A stretch of 64,000 bases of DNA from Lachnospiraceae bacterium (GTDB lineage: Bacteria; Bacillota; Clostridia; Lachnospirales; Lachnospiraceae), in the NCBI GenBank assembly GCA_017428265.1, contig JAFRRD010000037.1, positions 21,552-85,551 of the forward strand, written 5' to 3'. The translations under genes were made by a program, and so were the position numbers. Under the pieces are notes generated by a model that searched no databases, was not told the DNA's origin, and worked only from the letters and a program-made list of their open reading frames with translations. Below are positions 12,968-21,422 of this stretch, in pieces (position 1 is the first letter of the stretch; each line of letters begins with the position of its first letter).

Positions 12968-14596
12968 TCAACTTCTCTCCAGCGCTTCGGCGATGTTCAT
13001 GGCCTGGTCGCCGCAGCGTTCCAGATCCGTGCACATATCCGTAAAGATCACGCCGCCGAGCGGATCGCAGGCGTTCACCATCAGCCGGTCGATATGGTTC
13101 CGGATGAACTGCTCCTGCATGTCGTCAATCGCCTGTTCACCCGCCTTGACCATCTCCAGGAGCTCGAAATGCTCTTTCTCGAACACTTCCATCGCCCGGT
13201 CCAGGTTGTCCACGACCGCGTCCGCCAGCGTTCGCAGTTCCGCCATCGCAGTCTTCGAAATGACCGCCTTCGCAGATTTCATCTTTGCTGCGAATTCGAT
13301 GATATTTTCCGCATGGTCACTGATGCGCTCGAAGTTCGACACGACCAGAATCAGGCGGGACAGGCGGAACACGTCCTTATCCGAAAGCGGCATCGCCCGC
13401 AGTTCCACCAGTTTGTCTTCGATGGTCTTGTTCAGCCAGTCGACCGTCTCTTCCGTCTCTTCCACCTGCGCAAAGAGCTGCGTCTGCGACGGGTCGAAGA
13501 AGTAACGGACCGCATTCTTCAGGTTGGTCGCGGCGATCCCGCCCATGCGGACGATCTCCAGCTTAGCCTGGCCCATGGCCACGGCCGGGATGGTCTTATT
13601 GTTGATATTGGCAATGTAGACCAGCCTGCGGTCTTCGAGGACCTGCTGTTCGCTCGCCTTAAGCGGCACGGCGAGTTTCGTCAGCTTCACGATCTGCTCC
13701 GCAAACGGACTGATGACCAGTACGGCAAAGATGGCGAAAATGGTATGGGTATTCGCGACCTGGCGGGCGACGTCACCGGGTGAAAGCGATTTGATCCAGT
13801 CGGTGACTGCCGGAACCAGCACGACGATCAGGGTAAGGACCGCGCCGCGGATCAGGTTGAGGAACAGGTTCAGCAGGGCCGTCCGCTTGCCGTTGCGGCC
13901 CGTGGTCAGAGACGCGAGCAGGTTCGGTGTCACCGAGCCGATCGCCGCGCCGATGATCAGGAACACGCACTGCTCATAGCTGAGCATGCCCTCCACGGCG
14001 AAGGCCTGAAAGATGACGATCGACGAGGAGGAGCTCTGCAGCAGGGCCGTGAACAGGATGCCGAACAGGATGGCTGCCGCCGGATGTCCGATCAGGCCCA
14101 GCGCCTTCACGAAGCCGTCGCTTTCCGCGAGAAGGGCAATCGCACTTTTCAGAATACCGATACCGACGAACAGCATGCCGAAGCCCAGGATCACCTTGCC
14201 GATGTTCTGCACCAGTGAGCTTTTGGCAAACAGCGCCATGACGCAGCCGACAAAGAGCAGGAAAGGCGCGTAAGCCGTCAGATTGAAGGCGGTGATCTGC
14301 GCCGTGACCGTGGTGCCGATATTGGCGCCCATGATCACGCCGATCGCCTGCGAGAGGTTCATCAGAGCGGAATCCACGAAGCCGATCACCATCATGTCCG
14401 TGGCCGACGAGCTCTGGATCAGCATGGTCACGAGGATACCGATCAGGACTGCCGTGATCCGTTTCCCGGCCACCTTTTCAAGGATGGTCCGCAATTTGTC
14501 GCCGGCGGCGTTCTTGAGCCCCGTCGACATGATCGACATGCCGTAGAGAAAGAGGCCGATGCCGCCGAAGAAAGAAAGCAGTGAAGTCAGATTCAT
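12968..14596 (-). CDS. Na+/Pi cotransporter family protein with PhoU-like tail
   Basis: 542 residues. The first 310 form the NptA/PNaS membrane domain with the duplicated signature LIQSSSATDMMVIGF (about residue 60) and LLQSSSSSIVIF (about 190), and eight or so hydrophobic helices. Residues about 340-542 are helical and PhoU-like, with repeated E/D-rich helices for metal binding. Predicted role: sodium-driven phosphate import or export at the cell membrane, adjusted by the PhoU-like part. It is monocistronic. The ribosome site before the ATG is weak (AGGCAG). The 92 nt between it and prfC hold no clear terminator. Confidence 0.9.
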   Translation of the reverse strand: MNLTSLLSFFGGIGLFLYGMSIMSTGLKNAAGDKLRTILEKVAGKRITAVLIGILVTMLIQSSSATDMMVIGFVDSALMNLSQAIGVIMGANIGTTVTAQITAFNLTAYAPFLLFVGCVMALFAKSSLVQNIGKVILGFGMLFVGIGILKSAIALLAESDGFVKALGLIGHPAAAILFGILFTALLQSSSSSIVIFQAFAVEGMLSYEQCVFLIIGAAIGSVTPNLLASLTTGRNGKRTALLNLFLNLIRGAVLTLIVVLVPAVTDWIKSLSPGDVARQVANTHTIFAIFAVLVISPFAEQIVKLTKLAVPLKASEQQVLEDRRLVYIANINNKTIPAVAMGQAKLEIVRMGGIAATNLKNAVRYFFDPSQTQLFAQVEETEETVDWLNKTIEDKLVELRAMPLSDKDVFRLSRLILVVSNFERISDHAENIIEFAAKMKSAKAVISKTAMAELRTLADAVVDNLDRAMEVFEKEHFELLEMVKAGEQAIDDMQEQFIRNHIDRLMVNACDPLGGVIFTDMCTDLERCGDQAMNIAEALERS

Positions 14597-14680
14597 ATCG
14601 TTTTGCCGGACGTTCTGCCTTTCTGAGGATTTGGTCTTGCGGGTAAGAAAATGTGTTTAGTCTTCATAAAGACCCAATAT

Positions 14681-14710
14681 ATAGTAGCACAGAGGCGCCC
14701 GGAAAGTCAA
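14681..14710 (-). promoter_or_regulatory. Promoter of the Na/Pi cotransporter gene
   Basis: Minus strand: -35 TTGACT (14705-14710), 18-bp spacer, -10 TACTAT (14681-14686). It leaves an 85-nt leader. The remaining 14711-14870 is G+C-rich, with no recognised RNA motif, and then A+T-rich before the ABC-F gene. Confidence 0.5.
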
Positions 14711-14870
14711 TCTTGCGTCTTGTGCATTCCGCAGACGCATCTGCGGAATTCCGGAGGACGCCCGCGGAGCGGTCCGGGCGCTTCCGGCCGCATTTTCCCC
14801 TTGATTTTTCCGTGAATTATGAGAAAATAACAATGATATGTTCACATCAGAAAGGATCTGTGAGGATACC

Positions 14871-16496
14871 ATGATCACTGTCAGCAATGTTACCGTGCGG
14901 TTCGGCAAGGTTCCGCTTTTTGAAGACGTCAACGTCAAATTCGTCCCCGGCGAATGCTACGGCATCATCGGCGCGAACGGCGCCGGCAAGTCCACCTTCC
15001 TGAAGGTGCTGACCGGCGAGCTCGAGCCGTCCAAGGGGGACGTGTTCGTCACGCCCGGCGAACGCATCAGCATCCTGAAGCAGGACCACAACGCCTATGA
15101 TGCGCACCAGGTCCTGGAGACCGTCATGCTCGGCAATCCGCGCCTCTTCGAGGTCATGAAGGAGAAGGATGCCCTCTACATGAAGGAGGACTTCTCCGAG
15201 GAGGACGGCATCCGCGCGAGCGAGCTGGAAGGCGAATTTGCCGCCATGAACGGCTGGGAGGCCGAATCCGACGCCGCAACGCTCCTGAACGGCCTCGGCA
15301 TCGAGCCGGAGCTGCATGACAAGATGATGAGCGAGCTTTCCGGCGCCGAAAAGGTGAAGGTCCTGCTCGCGCAGGCCCTCTTCGGCAACCCCGACATCCT
15401 GCTGATGGACGAGCCGACCAACCACCTGGACCTCGCCGCCATCGCCTGGCTCGAGGAATTCCTGATCAATTTCGAGAACACCGTGGTGGTCGTCTCCCAC
15501 GACCGCTATTTCCTCAACAAGGTCTGCACCATGATCGCGGACATCGACTACAACAAGATCCAGCTCTACGCCGGCAACTACGATTTCTGGTACGAATCCA
15601 GCCAGCTGCGCGTGCGCCAGATGAAGGAAGCGAACAAGAAGAAAGAGGAGCAGATCAAGGAGCTGCAGGAATTCATCCAGCGCTTCTCTGCGAACGCCTC
15701 CAAGTCCAAGCAGGCGACGAGCCGCAAGCGCGCCCTGGAGAAGATCCAGCTGGACGACATCCGGCCCTCGAGCCGCAAGTATCCTTACATCGATTTCCGC
15801 CCGGACCGCACGATCGGCAACGAAGTGCTGGAGGTCAAGCACCTGTCCAAATCCATCCAGGGCGTGAAGATCCTCGACGACATCAGCTTCGTCCTGCGCC
15901 ATGACGACAAGGTCGCCTTCGTCGGCGCCGACGAGTTTGCCAAGACCGTCCTTTTCCAGATCCTCATGGGCGAAATGGAGCCCGACAGCGGCTCCTACAA
16001 ATGGGGCGTCACCACGAGCCGCGCCTATTTCCCGAAGGACAGCTCCGACGAGTTCAAGGCGGATCTCACCATCACCGAATGGCTGACCGGCTACTCTCCC
16101 GTCAAGGACATGACCTACGTCCGCGGCTTCCTGGGCCGCATGCTCTTCGCCGGCGACGACGGTGTAAAAAAGCTGGGCGTTCTTTCCGGCGGCGAGCGCG
16201 TGCGCTGCATGTTCTCGAAGATGATGATCAGCGGCGCAAACGTCCTGATCTTCGACGAACCGACCAACCATCTGGACATGGAATCGATCACCGCCCTCAA
16301 CAACGGCATGATCAAGTTCCCGGGCGTGATCTTATTTACCTCCCGCGACCATCAGATCGTCCAGACCACGGCAAACCGCATCATCGAGATCATCCAGGGG
16401 AAGATCATCGACAAGATCACGACCTACGACGAATACCTGGCCGACGACATCATGGCCATGAAGCGTATGGTCTACAATGCCGGGACCGAAGACTGA
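14871..16496 (+). CDS. ABC-F family ATPase with degenerate second nucleotide site
   Basis: 541 residues, two ABC domains joined by a charged linker (about 240-310) and no membrane part, so a ribosome-associated ABC-F protein of the YbiT-like group. Domain 1 is normal: GANGAGKST at 34-42, LSGAE signature, Walker B LLMDEPTNHLDL and SHDRYF. In domain 2 the Walker A is GADEFAKTV (352-360), without the GxGK loop, and the switch motif is TSRDHQ rather than SHDxx. LSGGE and IFDEPTNHLDM remain. The start was set at the ATG at 14871 with GAGGAT upstream. It may act as a translation factor or in antibiotic protection; the degenerate site suggests asymmetric ATP use. Confidence 0.9.
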   Translation: MITVSNVTVRFGKVPLFEDVNVKFVPGECYGIIGANGAGKSTFLKVLTGELEPSKGDVFVTPGERISILKQDHNAYDAHQVLETVMLGNPRLFEVMKEKDALYMKEDFSEEDGIRASELEGEFAAMNGWEAESDAATLLNGLGIEPELHDKMMSELSGAEKVKVLLAQALFGNPDILLMDEPTNHLDLAAIAWLEEFLINFENTVVVVSHDRYFLNKVCTMIADIDYNKIQLYAGNYDFWYESSQLRVRQMKEANKKKEEQIKELQEFIQRFSANASKSKQATSRKRALEKIQLDDIRPSSRKYPYIDFRPDRTIGNEVLEVKHLSKSIQGVKILDDISFVLRHDDKVAFVGADEFAKTVLFQILMGEMEPDSGSYKWGVTTSRAYFPKDSSDEFKADLTITEWLTGYSPVKDMTYVRGFLGRMLFAGDDGVKKLGVLSGGERVRCMFSKMMISGANVLIFDEPTNHLDMESITALNNGMIKFPGVILFTSRDHQIVQTTANRIIEIIQGKIIDKITTYDEYLADDIMAMKRMVYNAGTED

Positions 16497-17595: not shown

Positions 17596-17619
17596 TCCCG
17601 AATCATCGCCAAAGCAGGC

Positions 17620-17648
17620 AAAACGCGTCCGGTCATCCGGGCGCGTTT
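17620..17648 (+). terminator. Terminator of the zinc-ribbon operon
   Basis: AAAACGCG...CGCGTTTT stem with an inner CCGG pairing, ending in a T run; about 25 nt after the stop codon. Confidence 0.75.
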
Positions 17649-17724
17649 TGGATTTTCTGCAGATGCTTGTATGGTACAGCGCGCCTGCGCGCATTTGCCG
17701 CGGCACGGAATGATCCTGCGACTA

Positions 17725-19317
17725 TCACAGATCAAAGTGTGCTGTATTGTCGCGCTGGTAGGAGCACCAGCTGACATTCTCGGTCAGTTCCTCGCGGGCG
17801 ATGAGGCAAAGCAGGCCGGGCGTCTCGCCGAAGCGGTCAATGCGGTCCCGGACCGTCCGGTAAAAGCGTTCCATTTTGACATGGTCGGACGTCACCCGGG
17901 AAAGCGACAGGCGGCCGTAATAATGCGAGATGAACAGGGCTGCCGCCGACACGCTGCCGAGAAGCAGTTTGGACAGGGTGCGGTATTTCTCCGCTTCCGC
18001 GATCTGCCGGGAGAACGGCAGAAGGCCGCCCCAGACGGCCTCAAACACCAGCACGGCGAAATACAGCCCGATGCTGATCCGCAGGGCGGCGCCGACGATC
18101 CGCTCGCTGCTCCTGAATGCACGCCCGGAGTGTCCGATCGCCTTCTCATGGTATCTGCGCTGCTGTTCCACCCATACGTCCCGTATGGCGTGAACGGCCT
18201 TCGGCGCACCGGCGGCGGCACAGGCGTTCAGGGCCGCGGCGACCCATCCGGCCTCGGTCTTTGCCGACCACGGAAGAATATCCGCGACGGTTCCGCCTCT
18301 TCCGGCATAGCGCAGAAACGCCTGTACCCGCATGCCTTCCGCGAGCATCCGGTATTCCAGATAGCGGCGGTGTGACGCGATGCGTTTTCCGCGGCGCTGC
18401 AGGATCCAGGCCAGCAGCAGCATGGCCCCGCAGACAAGGATCATCCAATGCAGTTCGGCCTCATCGTAAAGCAGAAAGGCGACGGTGATGACCGTGCTGA
18501 TGACCGCCAGTGCAGCAAGAAGCCGCCGATACCGTTCCGCAAAGCGGATGCTCAGGGCATCCGCTTTTTCGTACAGCGTTTCCAGCCGGTCCAGGCATTC
18601 GTCCGGCTCACGCTCCGCAGGCAGCAGTGCCCGCTGCGGCCGAGGTTCCTGTCCGGCCAGTTTATTGAACTCATCGGTACGCGCCAGAGTCAGCTCAAAG
18701 GCTGCCTCGTCACCGAGGAAACGGACCTTTCCCGCGCCTTCACCCTCAGCCCCGCTTCTCGGCGTCCGAACCTGCCACACAGGGCAGTTCCCGCCCAACG
18801 GGATCGCATTTTTCGGCTCATAGGCGCCTTCCAGGGCAAAACCTACGGTTTCAGCGGTCCCGCAGGACAGCGCCGCCGTTTGATCTCCGTCCCAGAGTGC
18901 AAGCAGCACATGCGCATGCGCCGCCACGAAGATGCCGGCCTGCCGGTAGGCAAAGTCCCTGTCCGGCGAAAGCGGCGCCTGCTCCGTTTCAGGCGCAATG
19001 AAGCACTCTTTTGCGGCGCCGCAGAGGGTCCGGAACCGAAGCAGTTCCTCCCCGGAAAAGTCCTTCTCATATTCTTCCTGCGCCATCGGCAGGACGACTG
19101 TCAGCGGGATCGAAAGTTTGAGCGCCGCCTCGGCACAGAGCTGATCCGCGCTCCGGGCAAGGCTGTTCAGCATGACGATCCCGGAGTGCGGACACTTTTC
19201 ACGGAGCGCCAGGAGTATCTTTTCCACGGCGTTGCAAAGCGCGTCACGGTCTTCGGGCCTGATGTCCCGATGTCCCGTCACGCCGACAACGATCGGAACC
19301 GTATCGCGCAGCACCAT
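17725..19317 (-). CDS. SLOG-like domain fused to four-helix (SLATT-like) membrane module
   Basis: 530 residues. Residues 8-165 look like a Rossmannoid nucleotide-binding SLOG domain (DprA/LOG superfamily): VVGVTGHRDIRPEDRDAL at the start, SLARSADQLCAEAAL, VLLALWDGD at about 137-145 and a Gly-Thr loop CGTAETVGFAL near 152-162. A helical linker follows (225-265). Then come two pairs of membrane helices, about 266-284 with 288-306 and 406-428 with 449-466, separated by cytosolic helices, as in SLATT-type putative pore proteins. The start was set at 19315-19317 because AAAGGAG is 5 nt upstream. It begins 13 nt after the HD-domain gene and shares its operon. Inference: ligand-controlled membrane effector. 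SLATT assignment is tentative. Confidence 0.7.
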   Translation of the reverse strand: MVLRDTVPIVVGVTGHRDIRPEDRDALCNAVEKILLALREKCPHSGIVMLNSLARSADQLCAEAALKLSIPLTVVLPMAQEEYEKDFSGEELLRFRTLCGAAKECFIAPETEQAPLSPDRDFAYRQAGIFVAAHAHVLLALWDGDQTAALSCGTAETVGFALEGAYEPKNAIPLGGNCPVWQVRTPRSGAEGEGAGKVRFLGDEAAFELTLARTDEFNKLAGQEPRPQRALLPAEREPDECLDRLETLYEKADALSIRFAERYRRLLAALAVISTVITVAFLLYDEAELHWMILVCGAMLLLAWILQRRGKRIASHRRYLEYRMLAEGMRVQAFLRYAGRGGTVADILPWSAKTEAGWVAAALNACAAAGAPKAVHAIRDVWVEQQRRYHEKAIGHSGRAFRSSERIVGAALRISIGLYFAVLVFEAVWGGLLPFSRQIAEAEKYRTLSKLLLGSVSAAALFISHYYGRLSLSRVTSDHVKMERFYRTVRDRIDRFGETPGLLCLIAREELTENVSWCSYQRDNTAHFDL

Positions 19318-19330
19318 ACCGTCTCCTTTT

Positions 19331-21361
19331 TCAGTCAAGTTTATAGATCCGCAGCCCGTCAAATTTACGGATCAGCTTCAGCATCGAGTTGAACGGTTTC
19401 CAGTCCTTGCCCTGGTCTGCTTCGGGCAGCTGCAGATAGTGCCGCGCGATCTCAAGATCGCCGAAATCGCCGTTGATGCACAGTTTGTGCTGCCGCATCT
19501 GTTCGCGCAGGGCGGCGCGGTCTGTATCCTCATCAAGGGCAGCGGTCTCATACAGGTTTCCCGCGGTCCAGCCCATCGCACGGTAGGCCCGGACCCAGCG
19601 GGCATGCTCCATCGGCGCGAACACGGCACACTGCTCTTCGGTAAACGAACGAAGCATTTCAAAGTCGACGGGGCGGTCCGTATAGAAGCAATCGATCGCG
19701 TTCAGATATTTCGCAAAGTTCTTGACCTGATTGATGTTGCTCAGCTGATATTCCAGGGACATCTCGTCGAAATCGCGTTCGAGCTGCTCCGCCGAGATCC
19801 CGTCTTCCTTTCCTTCGTAGCGGTAGCGTCCGTTGATCGCCACGGCAAAATCGTACATATGCAGGAAACTGCTGCCGGAAAGGTACGTGTGCTTGCTCTT
19901 TCTGTCCGCGGTGCGCATGAACGTCGCGACAAAGAGGGGATAATCGGACAGATCGACGATCTTTTCGATATCCGTGCGGAAACGCTGTTCTTTCTCAGCC
20001 ATGTCGCTGAAGGCCTTCAGGCGGGGCGGATCCCCAGCGGAACCGTTTTGTTCCCAGGCACGGTATTCTTCTTCGTATCGGCCGATTTTCTCGGATTCCT
20101 CGGCGTCAAAGCAATAGAGCGCGTGGATCATGCCCCGGCTGAGATCGAACTCCGCATCCATCGGATGCAGCTCGGTCCGCGAGTTTCTGCCGTAGGCGGT
20201 GCGGTCCCAGCACTGCAGCTCGTCGCACAGCATCAAAAGGAAGGCGAGCGGGTGCAGCTCCGCCTTCAGCGGCGCCCTGCGCTTCTTTTTGTCTTTATAG
20301 AAGGCGATCGCAAACTTGAACATGCTGTTGTGCAGCATGATCGCCGTCAGCGCATCGACGTGCGCTTCGGTGAGCGCTTCCGCCCCGAGCACCTCGGCCA
20401 GTTCCTGATACAGGCGCGTGGCACTGAAATAGGCGTGATCCATGAAATAGCCGAAGCGTTCCGGTTCGGTGGGCTTGCTGCGGATCGTATCGAGAAGGTA
20501 ATCCTCCAACACACCGTATGCTTCGCCGAGCCGCTTTTCGATCCCGTAAGCCAGCAATGCCTCAACGGAATCGAACGGCCGGCCCATCAGCTTCGAAAAA
20601 TGCTTTTTCGCCGCGCTGCTCATGCCGGTCAGGCAGTCCAGATCGCGATAGGCCAAATACAGGCTGCCCGGACCGCGATCCCTGCGGTCGACCTCAAAAT
20701 AGGCAAGCACCTGCTCGAACGGGATCTCAAAGGGATAGCCGATGTCGTGGAACAGCGACGTCAGCCCCCAGTACTCGAGGAAGAACGCCGCGGCCGCATG
20801 CTCATCCTGTTCCGGCTCGAAGCCGTAGAACGTCTGGAAGGTCCTGCGGAACTGCTCATTCGTTTCATAGATCGCCAGGCCGAGCGCGAACACATAGACC
20901 GAATGCGAATAATGATCGCGGTGCTTCATCAGAAGCGTGCTCGCGTTCGATTCAAACTCGGACAGCAGCTCGATCATCTTGCTCGACTGCGCGTAGGTCC
21001 CCAGAAACATCCTCAAAAAGCTGTAATAAACGGTATAGGCGTCCTCTGCGACGCCGGAGCCGATGAAGTTCTCCAGTTCGCGCTCCAGGCAGAGACGGTC
21101 GATGTCCATCTGCATGTCATACGGGATCTGATTCCGCGCAAGGCCCGTGCCCAGATACTGTCCGGTCCGCTCTTCCTTCCGGGTCTTTTCGGGCGAGAAG
21201 CGGAGCCCCTCGCAGCGCTCATGCAAAAAGCGCAGCGCCGCGGATCTCAGGTCATTTCCCTCGTTTCCCGCGCCGTACAGTTCCGGTTCAAACGGTCCGA
21301 CGTCCGTGCCGAAGCGCTCCCGGTTCACTTTTCTCATCTTCTCCAATGCGGTATATGCCAT
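19331..21361 (-). CDS. Large HD-domain protein with RyR-like C-terminus
   Basis: 676 residues, no membrane segment. A divergent HD metal-phosphohydrolase core spans about 140-390: HRDHYSH (147-153), the signature SLFHDIGYP with His 205-Asp 206, DHAYFSA (308-314), IMLHNSMF with His 344, and LLMLCDELQCWDR with Asp 380. HD enzymes of this kind often act on nucleotides. Near the C-terminus, MEHARWVRAYRAMGWTAG (584-601) followed by a His/Cys-containing segment resembles RyR domains, which are predicted ligand-binding modules. GAGGAG precedes the ATG. It is the first gene of a two-gene operon with the SLOG-like membrane protein. The exact substrate and family are unknown to me. Confidence 0.7.
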   Translation of the reverse strand: MAYTALEKMRKVNRERFGTDVGPFEPELYGAGNEGNDLRSAALRFLHERCEGLRFSPEKTRKEERTGQYLGTGLARNQIPYDMQMDIDRLCLERELENFIGSGVAEDAYTVYYSFLRMFLGTYAQSSKMIELLSEFESNASTLLMKHRDHYSHSVYVFALGLAIYETNEQFRRTFQTFYGFEPEQDEHAAAAFFLEYWGLTSLFHDIGYPFEIPFEQVLAYFEVDRRDRGPGSLYLAYRDLDCLTGMSSAAKKHFSKLMGRPFDSVEALLAYGIEKRLGEAYGVLEDYLLDTIRSKPTEPERFGYFMDHAYFSATRLYQELAEVLGAEALTEAHVDALTAIMLHNSMFKFAIAFYKDKKKRRAPLKAELHPLAFLLMLCDELQCWDRTAYGRNSRTELHPMDAEFDLSRGMIHALYCFDAEESEKIGRYEEEYRAWEQNGSAGDPPRLKAFSDMAEKEQRFRTDIEKIVDLSDYPLFVATFMRTADRKSKHTYLSGSSFLHMYDFAVAINGRYRYEGKEDGISAEQLERDFDEMSLEYQLSNINQVKNFAKYLNAIDCFYTDRPVDFEMLRSFTEEQCAVFAPMEHARWVRAYRAMGWTAGNLYETAALDEDTDRAALREQMRQHKLCINGDFGDLEIARHYLQLPEADQGKDWKPFNSMLKLIRKFDGLRIYKLD

Positions 21362-21393
21362 GATACTGTCTCCTCATCCGGTCCTGTGATCTC

Positions 21394-21422
21394 ATTTTAT
21401 TTCAGCCGCATGGTGCCGTCAA
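21394..21422 (-). promoter_or_regulatory. Promoter of the HD/SLOG-like operon
   Basis: Minus strand: -35 TTGACG (21417-21422), 17-bp spacer, -10 TAAAAT (21394-21399). It is near consensus, with a short leader of about 25 nt. Confidence 0.75.

Follow-up and report, generated by a model that had tools for sequence, protein, structure and literature searches.

The names SLOG and SLATT, for which Burroughs et al. 2015 is reportedly the source, recur in the described systems closest to the locus considered here. In Thoeris, a TIR protein (ThsB) is paired with an effector (ThsA) of the SIR2-SLOG or TM-macro type; the SLOG domain of ThsA binds 3' cyclic ADP-ribose (3'cADPR), TM-macro ThsA perturbs membranes, and SLOG and membrane parts are thus both known among ThsA effectors (PMC11204291). 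SLATT/DUF4231 two-helix membrane domains, described by the Aravind group, are predicted to answer nucleotide or ADP-ribose signals and are found beside phage TIR genes (PMC7159879, PMC9503650). Phage proteins with RyR domains bind or cleave 2'/3'cADPR; in the phage protein RyDEP, H75 and W78 contact the ribose and adenine of cADPR, together with D117 and H100 (PMC13232231, a preprint). We analyzed a gene pair in a stretch of 64,000 nucleotides (nt) from Lachnospiraceae bacterium (assembly GCA_017428265.1, contig JAFRRD010000037.1, positions 21,552 to 85,551 of the forward strand), hereafter the window. On its minus strand lie a gene for a 676-amino-acid (aa) protein with HD and RyR regions (HD-RyR; 19331..21361) and a gene for a 530-aa SLOG-SLATT-like protein (SLOG-SLATT; 17725..19317). 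The pair, noticed in an earlier sequence-only reading, is real. On balance, we consider it probable that it forms the reader end of TIR-dependent NAD/ADP-ribose-type signalling, most likely in abortive anti-phage defence.

The likeness to Thoeris is that relatives of the pair have a TIR gene beside a SLOG-sensor gene, and that the window's putative effector itself carries a SLOG fold. However, SLOG is here fused to DUF4231/SLATT-like helices, a combination not listed in the available part of PMC11204291. Moreover, HD-RyR joins as an additional partner, WD40, LRR or TPR regions are present in the TIR proteins, PADLOC ThsB models match the TIR parts weakly, and the TIR genes of the window's genome are unlinked to the pair. 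A TIR gene adjoins the effector gene in the related loci L132, L133, L019, L020 and L035, but not in the window. The system would work like Thoeris; we do not class it as such, because this adjacency is missing in the window and both signal and protection are putative. SLATT/DUF4231 effectors share the type of membrane domain and the TIR neighbours, whereas two helix pairs in one protein, the SLOG fusion and the HD-RyR partner set the window apart from them, as far as the available parts of those papers go; the words "ryanodine" and "RyR" have no occurrences in PMC7159879 and PMC9503650. RyDEP resembles HD-RyR in that its RyR (PF02026) domain, like the candidate RyR domain of HD-RyR, keeps a His and a Trp spaced by three residues, but HD-RyR is bacterial, fused to HD and encoded beside TIR/SLOG genes rather than acting against them. 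Finally, unlike the YpsA/DprA SLOG family and the SLOG-type (MHR) domains of TRPM2, the SLOG domain of the window is fused to a different membrane part. A literature search, with most subscription papers outside its reach, came upon no description of a system that joins HD-RyR with TIR, or SLOG-SLATT with TIR-WD40, and the claim that the pair is undescribed is as strong as that search and no stronger.

TIR genes around HD-RyR and SLOG-SLATT

When 84,980 species genomes were scanned under the guidance of a profile, 451 stretches matched, of which 399 were confirmed as HD-RyR relatives. We studied 81 loci, namely the best 80 of the 399 genome relatives (L019 to L098; 59-90% identity over the best segment) and one viral contig (L099). 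To call neighbours we used local TIR, SLOG and SLATT profiles; the TIR model had been built from seven of these same neighbours, such that it may miss others. A TIR gene occurs in 55 of the 81 loci, 49 of which have one on the HD-RyR strand. SLATT-type genes are present in 27 loci (19 of these with SLOG), and one or both kinds of partner in 63. Pfam TIR_2 was found in every TIR neighbour submitted (from L022, L057, L033, L061, L020, L014, L098 and L107), with LRR, TPR or WD40 regions among the fusions, and 77% of 60 aligned TIR sequences have Glu in the column that we presume to be catalytic.

TIR and HD-RyR are statistically linked. Whole-genome searches covered 48 of the 80 genome loci, picked mainly for long contigs. 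TIR_2 is present in 47 of these 48 genomes (184 matches in ~120 Mb). Among 291 genomes from the class, a comparison set not matched by kinship, 94 contain it. The SLOG-SLATT profile matches 28 of the 48, always in one copy (19 inside the fetched locus, 9 outside), and, in a class group likewise unmatched by kinship, 2 of 390 genomes other than the window's. A Fisher value of 7e-29 is not taken as a probability, since the genomes are related and the HD-RyR-free set came from a separate search. By location, 38 of the 48 HD-RyR loci have a TIR gene versus 1.2 under random placement. In addition, 12 of the 48 genomes have a single TIR_2 match, and in 11 of them, all but L097, it coincides with the TIR gene of the HD-RyR locus.

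In the three nearest relatives (L019, L020 and L035), a TIR-WD40 gene of 914-942 aa lies right after SLOG-SLATT on the opposite strand. The window has instead a gap of 129 bases (17596..17724) between SLOG-SLATT and a zinc-ribbon gene, at the place where L020 and L035 have the TIR-WD40 gene. Because the window locus has no TIR gene, the link to TIR is drawn from relatives. The window's genome has one DUF4231 gene, that of the pair, and four TIR genes away from the locus, of which the nearest in sequence shows 36% identity across 576 residues, rising to ~63% within the TIR part. We infer that the window locus lost its TIR gene or that the relatives gained one, and a TIR protein encoded elsewhere in the genome may serve the pair. 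The sequence-only reading had stated that the set lacks a TIR gene; this stands for the locus but is misleading for the system, given the 55 loci, all three nearest relatives and the four genes elsewhere. It had also staked the pair on adjacency in homologues. Relatives do keep it: in 14 of the 81 loci, SLOG-SLATT and HD-RyR share a strand and are no more than 200 nt apart (SLOG-SLATT downstream in 12, upstream in 2), and in 4 further loci a SLATT-only gene has such a position.

The partners are exchanged. In the two class genomes with SLOG-SLATT (G835 and G743), a gene of the TIR-WD40 type, WD40 being assigned by eye from the translation, is directly upstream, and no HD-RyR match occurs within 19 kb around SLOG-SLATT. 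Conversely, a SLATT match is absent from 20 of the 48 HD-RyR genomes, 16 of which have TIR in the HD-RyR locus, and distant HD-RyR genes in other families (~30% identity; L005, L006, L107 and L108) are directly followed by TIR-LRR or TIR genes. Since TIR thus occurs with SLOG-SLATT or HD-RyR alone, comparison of these loci identifies TIR as the shared element, either of the other two being able to act as its sole visible partner.

Some loci have further LRR genes. Three-gene clusters by HD-RyR, which encode a TIR protein, an LRR-rich protein (1000-1290 aa) and a short TIR-like protein that matches nothing in Pfam, occur in L022 (2060-7988), L021, L024, L030, L042 and L054. In L043 (6146-7864), a protein kinase fused to LRRs is directly upstream of HD-RyR, and the upstream gene of L050 is of the same kind by clustering.

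The HD-RyR and SLOG-SLATT proteins

The HD region of HD-RyR (residues 146-381; 20219..20926, minus strand) contains H153, H205, D206, H309, H344 and D380, which we assigned by eye as HD-type ligands and which are invariant in 49 of 49 aligned members. Pfam HD matches 10 of the 49 weakly (best E 0.02). In the RyR domain (approximately residues 583-673; 19343..19615, minus strand), H586, W589, W598 and D653 are likewise invariant, and H625 is conserved in 48 of 49. With matches accepted to E 1, PF02026 is found in 31 of the 49 members, the lowest E being 1.1e-5, and it is above its cut-off in the distant relative L005. When solved structures were searched by sequence for HD-RyR, human RyR3 was the sole match, a weak profile match (E 0.12) in which H586 and W589 align with His and Trp of a RyR3 repeat. 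An NCBIfam search with HD-RyR gained nothing. The earlier HD and RyR assignments are probably right.

This protein was first proposed to set the level of the signal. HD-RyR need not make the signal, however, and a TIR enzyme is the likelier source because TIR is the commonest neighbour, is present in all three nearest relatives and is encoded four times in the window's genome. The HD protein as signal maker was rejected because HD enzymes are hydrolases and a TIR gene is the more frequent neighbour. The RyR domain is more plausibly a binder of the signal.

RyR-like stretches also occur in other contexts. The profile matches C-terminal stretches of this kind in proteins resembling AAA-type ATPases by eye (L111:1363-3450 and L118:736-2010), which may mean that other outputs, too, have a RyR-type reader fused to them. 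A 637-aa membrane protein, RCK-type by eye (L112:1498-3411), matches RyR weakly at its C-terminus, with an E of 0.0048 that does not reach the cut-off. It is resembled by the membrane protein encoded after HD-RyR in L003, which looks like an RCK-type channel by eye and is without a Pfam match.

The SLOG domain of SLOG-SLATT (residues 1-221; 18655..19317, minus strand) has a SLOG Rossmann fold in the predicted structure model, whose likeness to the TRPM2 and ThsA SLOG domains ranks below that to YpsA and DprA. Helix pair 1 (residues 240-313; 18379..18600) corresponds to DUF4231, which scores above its cut-off (25.8 versus 24.7 bits), while NCBIfam SLATT_3 is below its own (21.2 versus 45). The final helix of pair 2 (residues 379-466; 17920..18183) has weak hydrophobicity; both pairs are encoded on the minus strand. 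The earlier reading would have fallen had structure prediction given neither a SLOG fold nor paired helices; it gave both, and these assignments stand. The motif G-V/I-T-G-H-R is exact in 18 of 20 SLOG sequences, and the full GxTGHR in 17; of the other three, L050 has A in place of T, L097 has I in place of R, and L090 has lost the motif. In the second motif, the Glu of the PGGxGTxxE type, three positions beyond the GT, is absent from all 20. The missing Glu suggests that SLOG binds its ligand rather than hydrolysing it. A match between the solved KtrA structure and the SLOG-SLATT profile spans 38 residues.

Small proteins 30-34% identical to the window's SLOG domain are encoded beside TIR and caspase-family genes in L016 (3642-5483; Agrobacterium Ti plasmid), L017 (5163-7368; plasmid of Methylorubrum) and L018 (3629-5483; pBS72 of B. 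subtilis). Perhaps these represent a further SLOG-containing TIR/caspase arrangement.

Readings of the pair

We propose the following mechanism. On infection, a TIR protein whose sensor region is of the WD40, LRR or TPR type would turn NAD+ into an ADP-ribose-type signal; for the window's pair, this source would be outside the locus, where the four TIR genes of the genome are. The SLOG domain would bind the signal and open or assemble the four-helix membrane part, such that the cell would lose membrane integrity. The idea of a nucleotide-gated membrane effector, already part of the sequence-only reading, is kept. HD-RyR would be a second, soluble reader, in which RyR binds the same signal and the HD metal centre acts on a nucleotide. 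That HD-RyR is a signal-switched effector enzyme is to us nearly an even call.

Type III CRISPR systems have ring nucleases, with a comparable signal-eraser logic. HD-RyR might accordingly be a brake, with RyR capturing the signal that TIR makes, for destruction or buffering by the HD or RyR centre, which would make HD-RyR a host-encoded eraser. RyDEP, a RyR-domain glycosidase, does cleave 2'/3'cADPR, although most of its relatives assayed bind without cleaving (PMC13232231). HD-RyR shares an operon with a membrane effector and its HD ligands are intact in 49 of 49 members, but the 16 of 48 genomes with HD-RyR and TIR yet no SLATT match, like the distant HD-RyR/TIR operons, have no visible effector to restrain. 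We regard a brake as rather unlikely, and a role other than effector or brake as a little less likely than that.

The reading as TIR-dependent defence has observations weighing against it, some of which favour other explanations. The 81 loci are largely from related rumen and gut Clostridia, and the controls are uncorrected for this kinship. Neither TIR nor SLATT-type genes were found in 18 loci, even with a laxer search; five of these are contigs of less than 10 kb. No TIR gene occurs in the short stretches read for distant relatives L109 and L110, while the L007 stretch ends too soon. In the window protein itself, Pfam detects neither RyR nor HD, which it finds in relatives only. Furthermore, the window locus has no TIR gene, and SLOG-SLATT is beside HD-RyR without TIR in the stretch in L026, L087 and L097 as well. 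The genome of L073 has HD-RyR and, elsewhere, SLATT, and is without a TIR_2 match in the whole-genome search. These cases are what would be expected of an independent two-component system of the kind first proposed, in which SLOG-SLATT is gated by a signal under the control of HD, as its maker or remover, and TIR is not needed. However, L026 is a 4.8-kb contig, and TIR is found elsewhere in the genomes of L087 (6 matches), L097 (1) and the window (4); we think such a system quite improbable.

Neither protein matches any PADLOC model at E 1, which agrees with the earlier description of the pair as a candidate undescribed system but is also compatible with a non-defence signalling or stress module, serving NAD or nucleotide homeostasis or membrane permeability as an ordinary chromosomal trait. 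Syntenic flanks of housekeeping-type genes in the nearest relatives point the same way, as do the few viral or plasmid records of HD-RyR: none in the plasmid collection, one in the phage collection and 2 of 25 candidate stretches in viral contigs, one of them a short 26% match. Against this, the distribution is patchy, TIR-repeat partners would be typical of conflict systems, and partners change frequently, the partner label changing at least 31 times over the 85 labelled rows of an 87-row tree in which two long branches, L003 and L014, meet. The labels are nonetheless clustered on that tree (33 changes in a five-group count versus 43.6 in shuffles). The loci are therefore not independent, which tells against our preferred reading, and partners are partly inherited and often exchanged. 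A non-defence module seems to us improbable, if somewhat less so than the independent pair.

If TIR-dependent defence is correct, bacterial TIR signalling would gain a SLOG-gated membrane output and a host-side RyR-HD enzyme as a second reader, in a defence candidate outside the PADLOC models tried and with modular, exchangeable partners. With a bacterial host protein that pairs the RyR domain with TIR genes, the origin of this domain would become directly testable in simple systems, as would a long-standing question, namely whether animal ryanodine receptors respond to cADPR. A bolder reading, which we regard as rather unlikely, is that bacteria use two host-encoded readers of ADP-ribose-type signals with animal counterparts, both driven by TIR proteins with WD40, LRR or TPR sensors. 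One would be a membrane protein gated by SLOG, with TRPM2 as its counterpart, and the other a RyR domain that switches an HD enzyme; the phage RyDEP proteins would then be thieves of a host signal reader.

Flanking genes and minor observations

Upstream of the pair, the window, L019, L020 and L035 have a common order of HAD, M28 peptidase, phosphoglycerate mutase-like, NUDIX and amidase-like genes, the names around the window's pair having been given by eye. Downstream, a zinc-ribbon pair and ABC-F are common to the window, L020 and L035 only, while L019 differs. The description of the pair as sitting among core genes thus agrees with all three nearest relatives upstream and with two of three downstream. 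In L019, the TIR-WD40 gene is followed by a 151-aa frame (14596-15051) in place of the zinc-ribbon gene of L020 and L035. By eye, this frame looks like the end of a serine recombinase, and it is a possible trace of a mobile element.

A sigma-70-like promoter (21394..21422, minus strand) agrees at 10 of 12 positions; we rejected it as evidence, because the number of such matches is near the shuffled mean. We likewise rejected a phage counter-defence gene, since the relatives (399 confirmed of 451 stretches) are mainly on genome contigs. On L014 (543-6509), a scaffold from human faeces that bears the label Bacteriophage sp., HD-RyR is followed by a TIR gene, whose product contains three copies of a ~100-residue repeat. 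On the other side of HD-RyR is the gene for a 511-aa protein that has no match and a hydrophobic stretch at its C-terminus.

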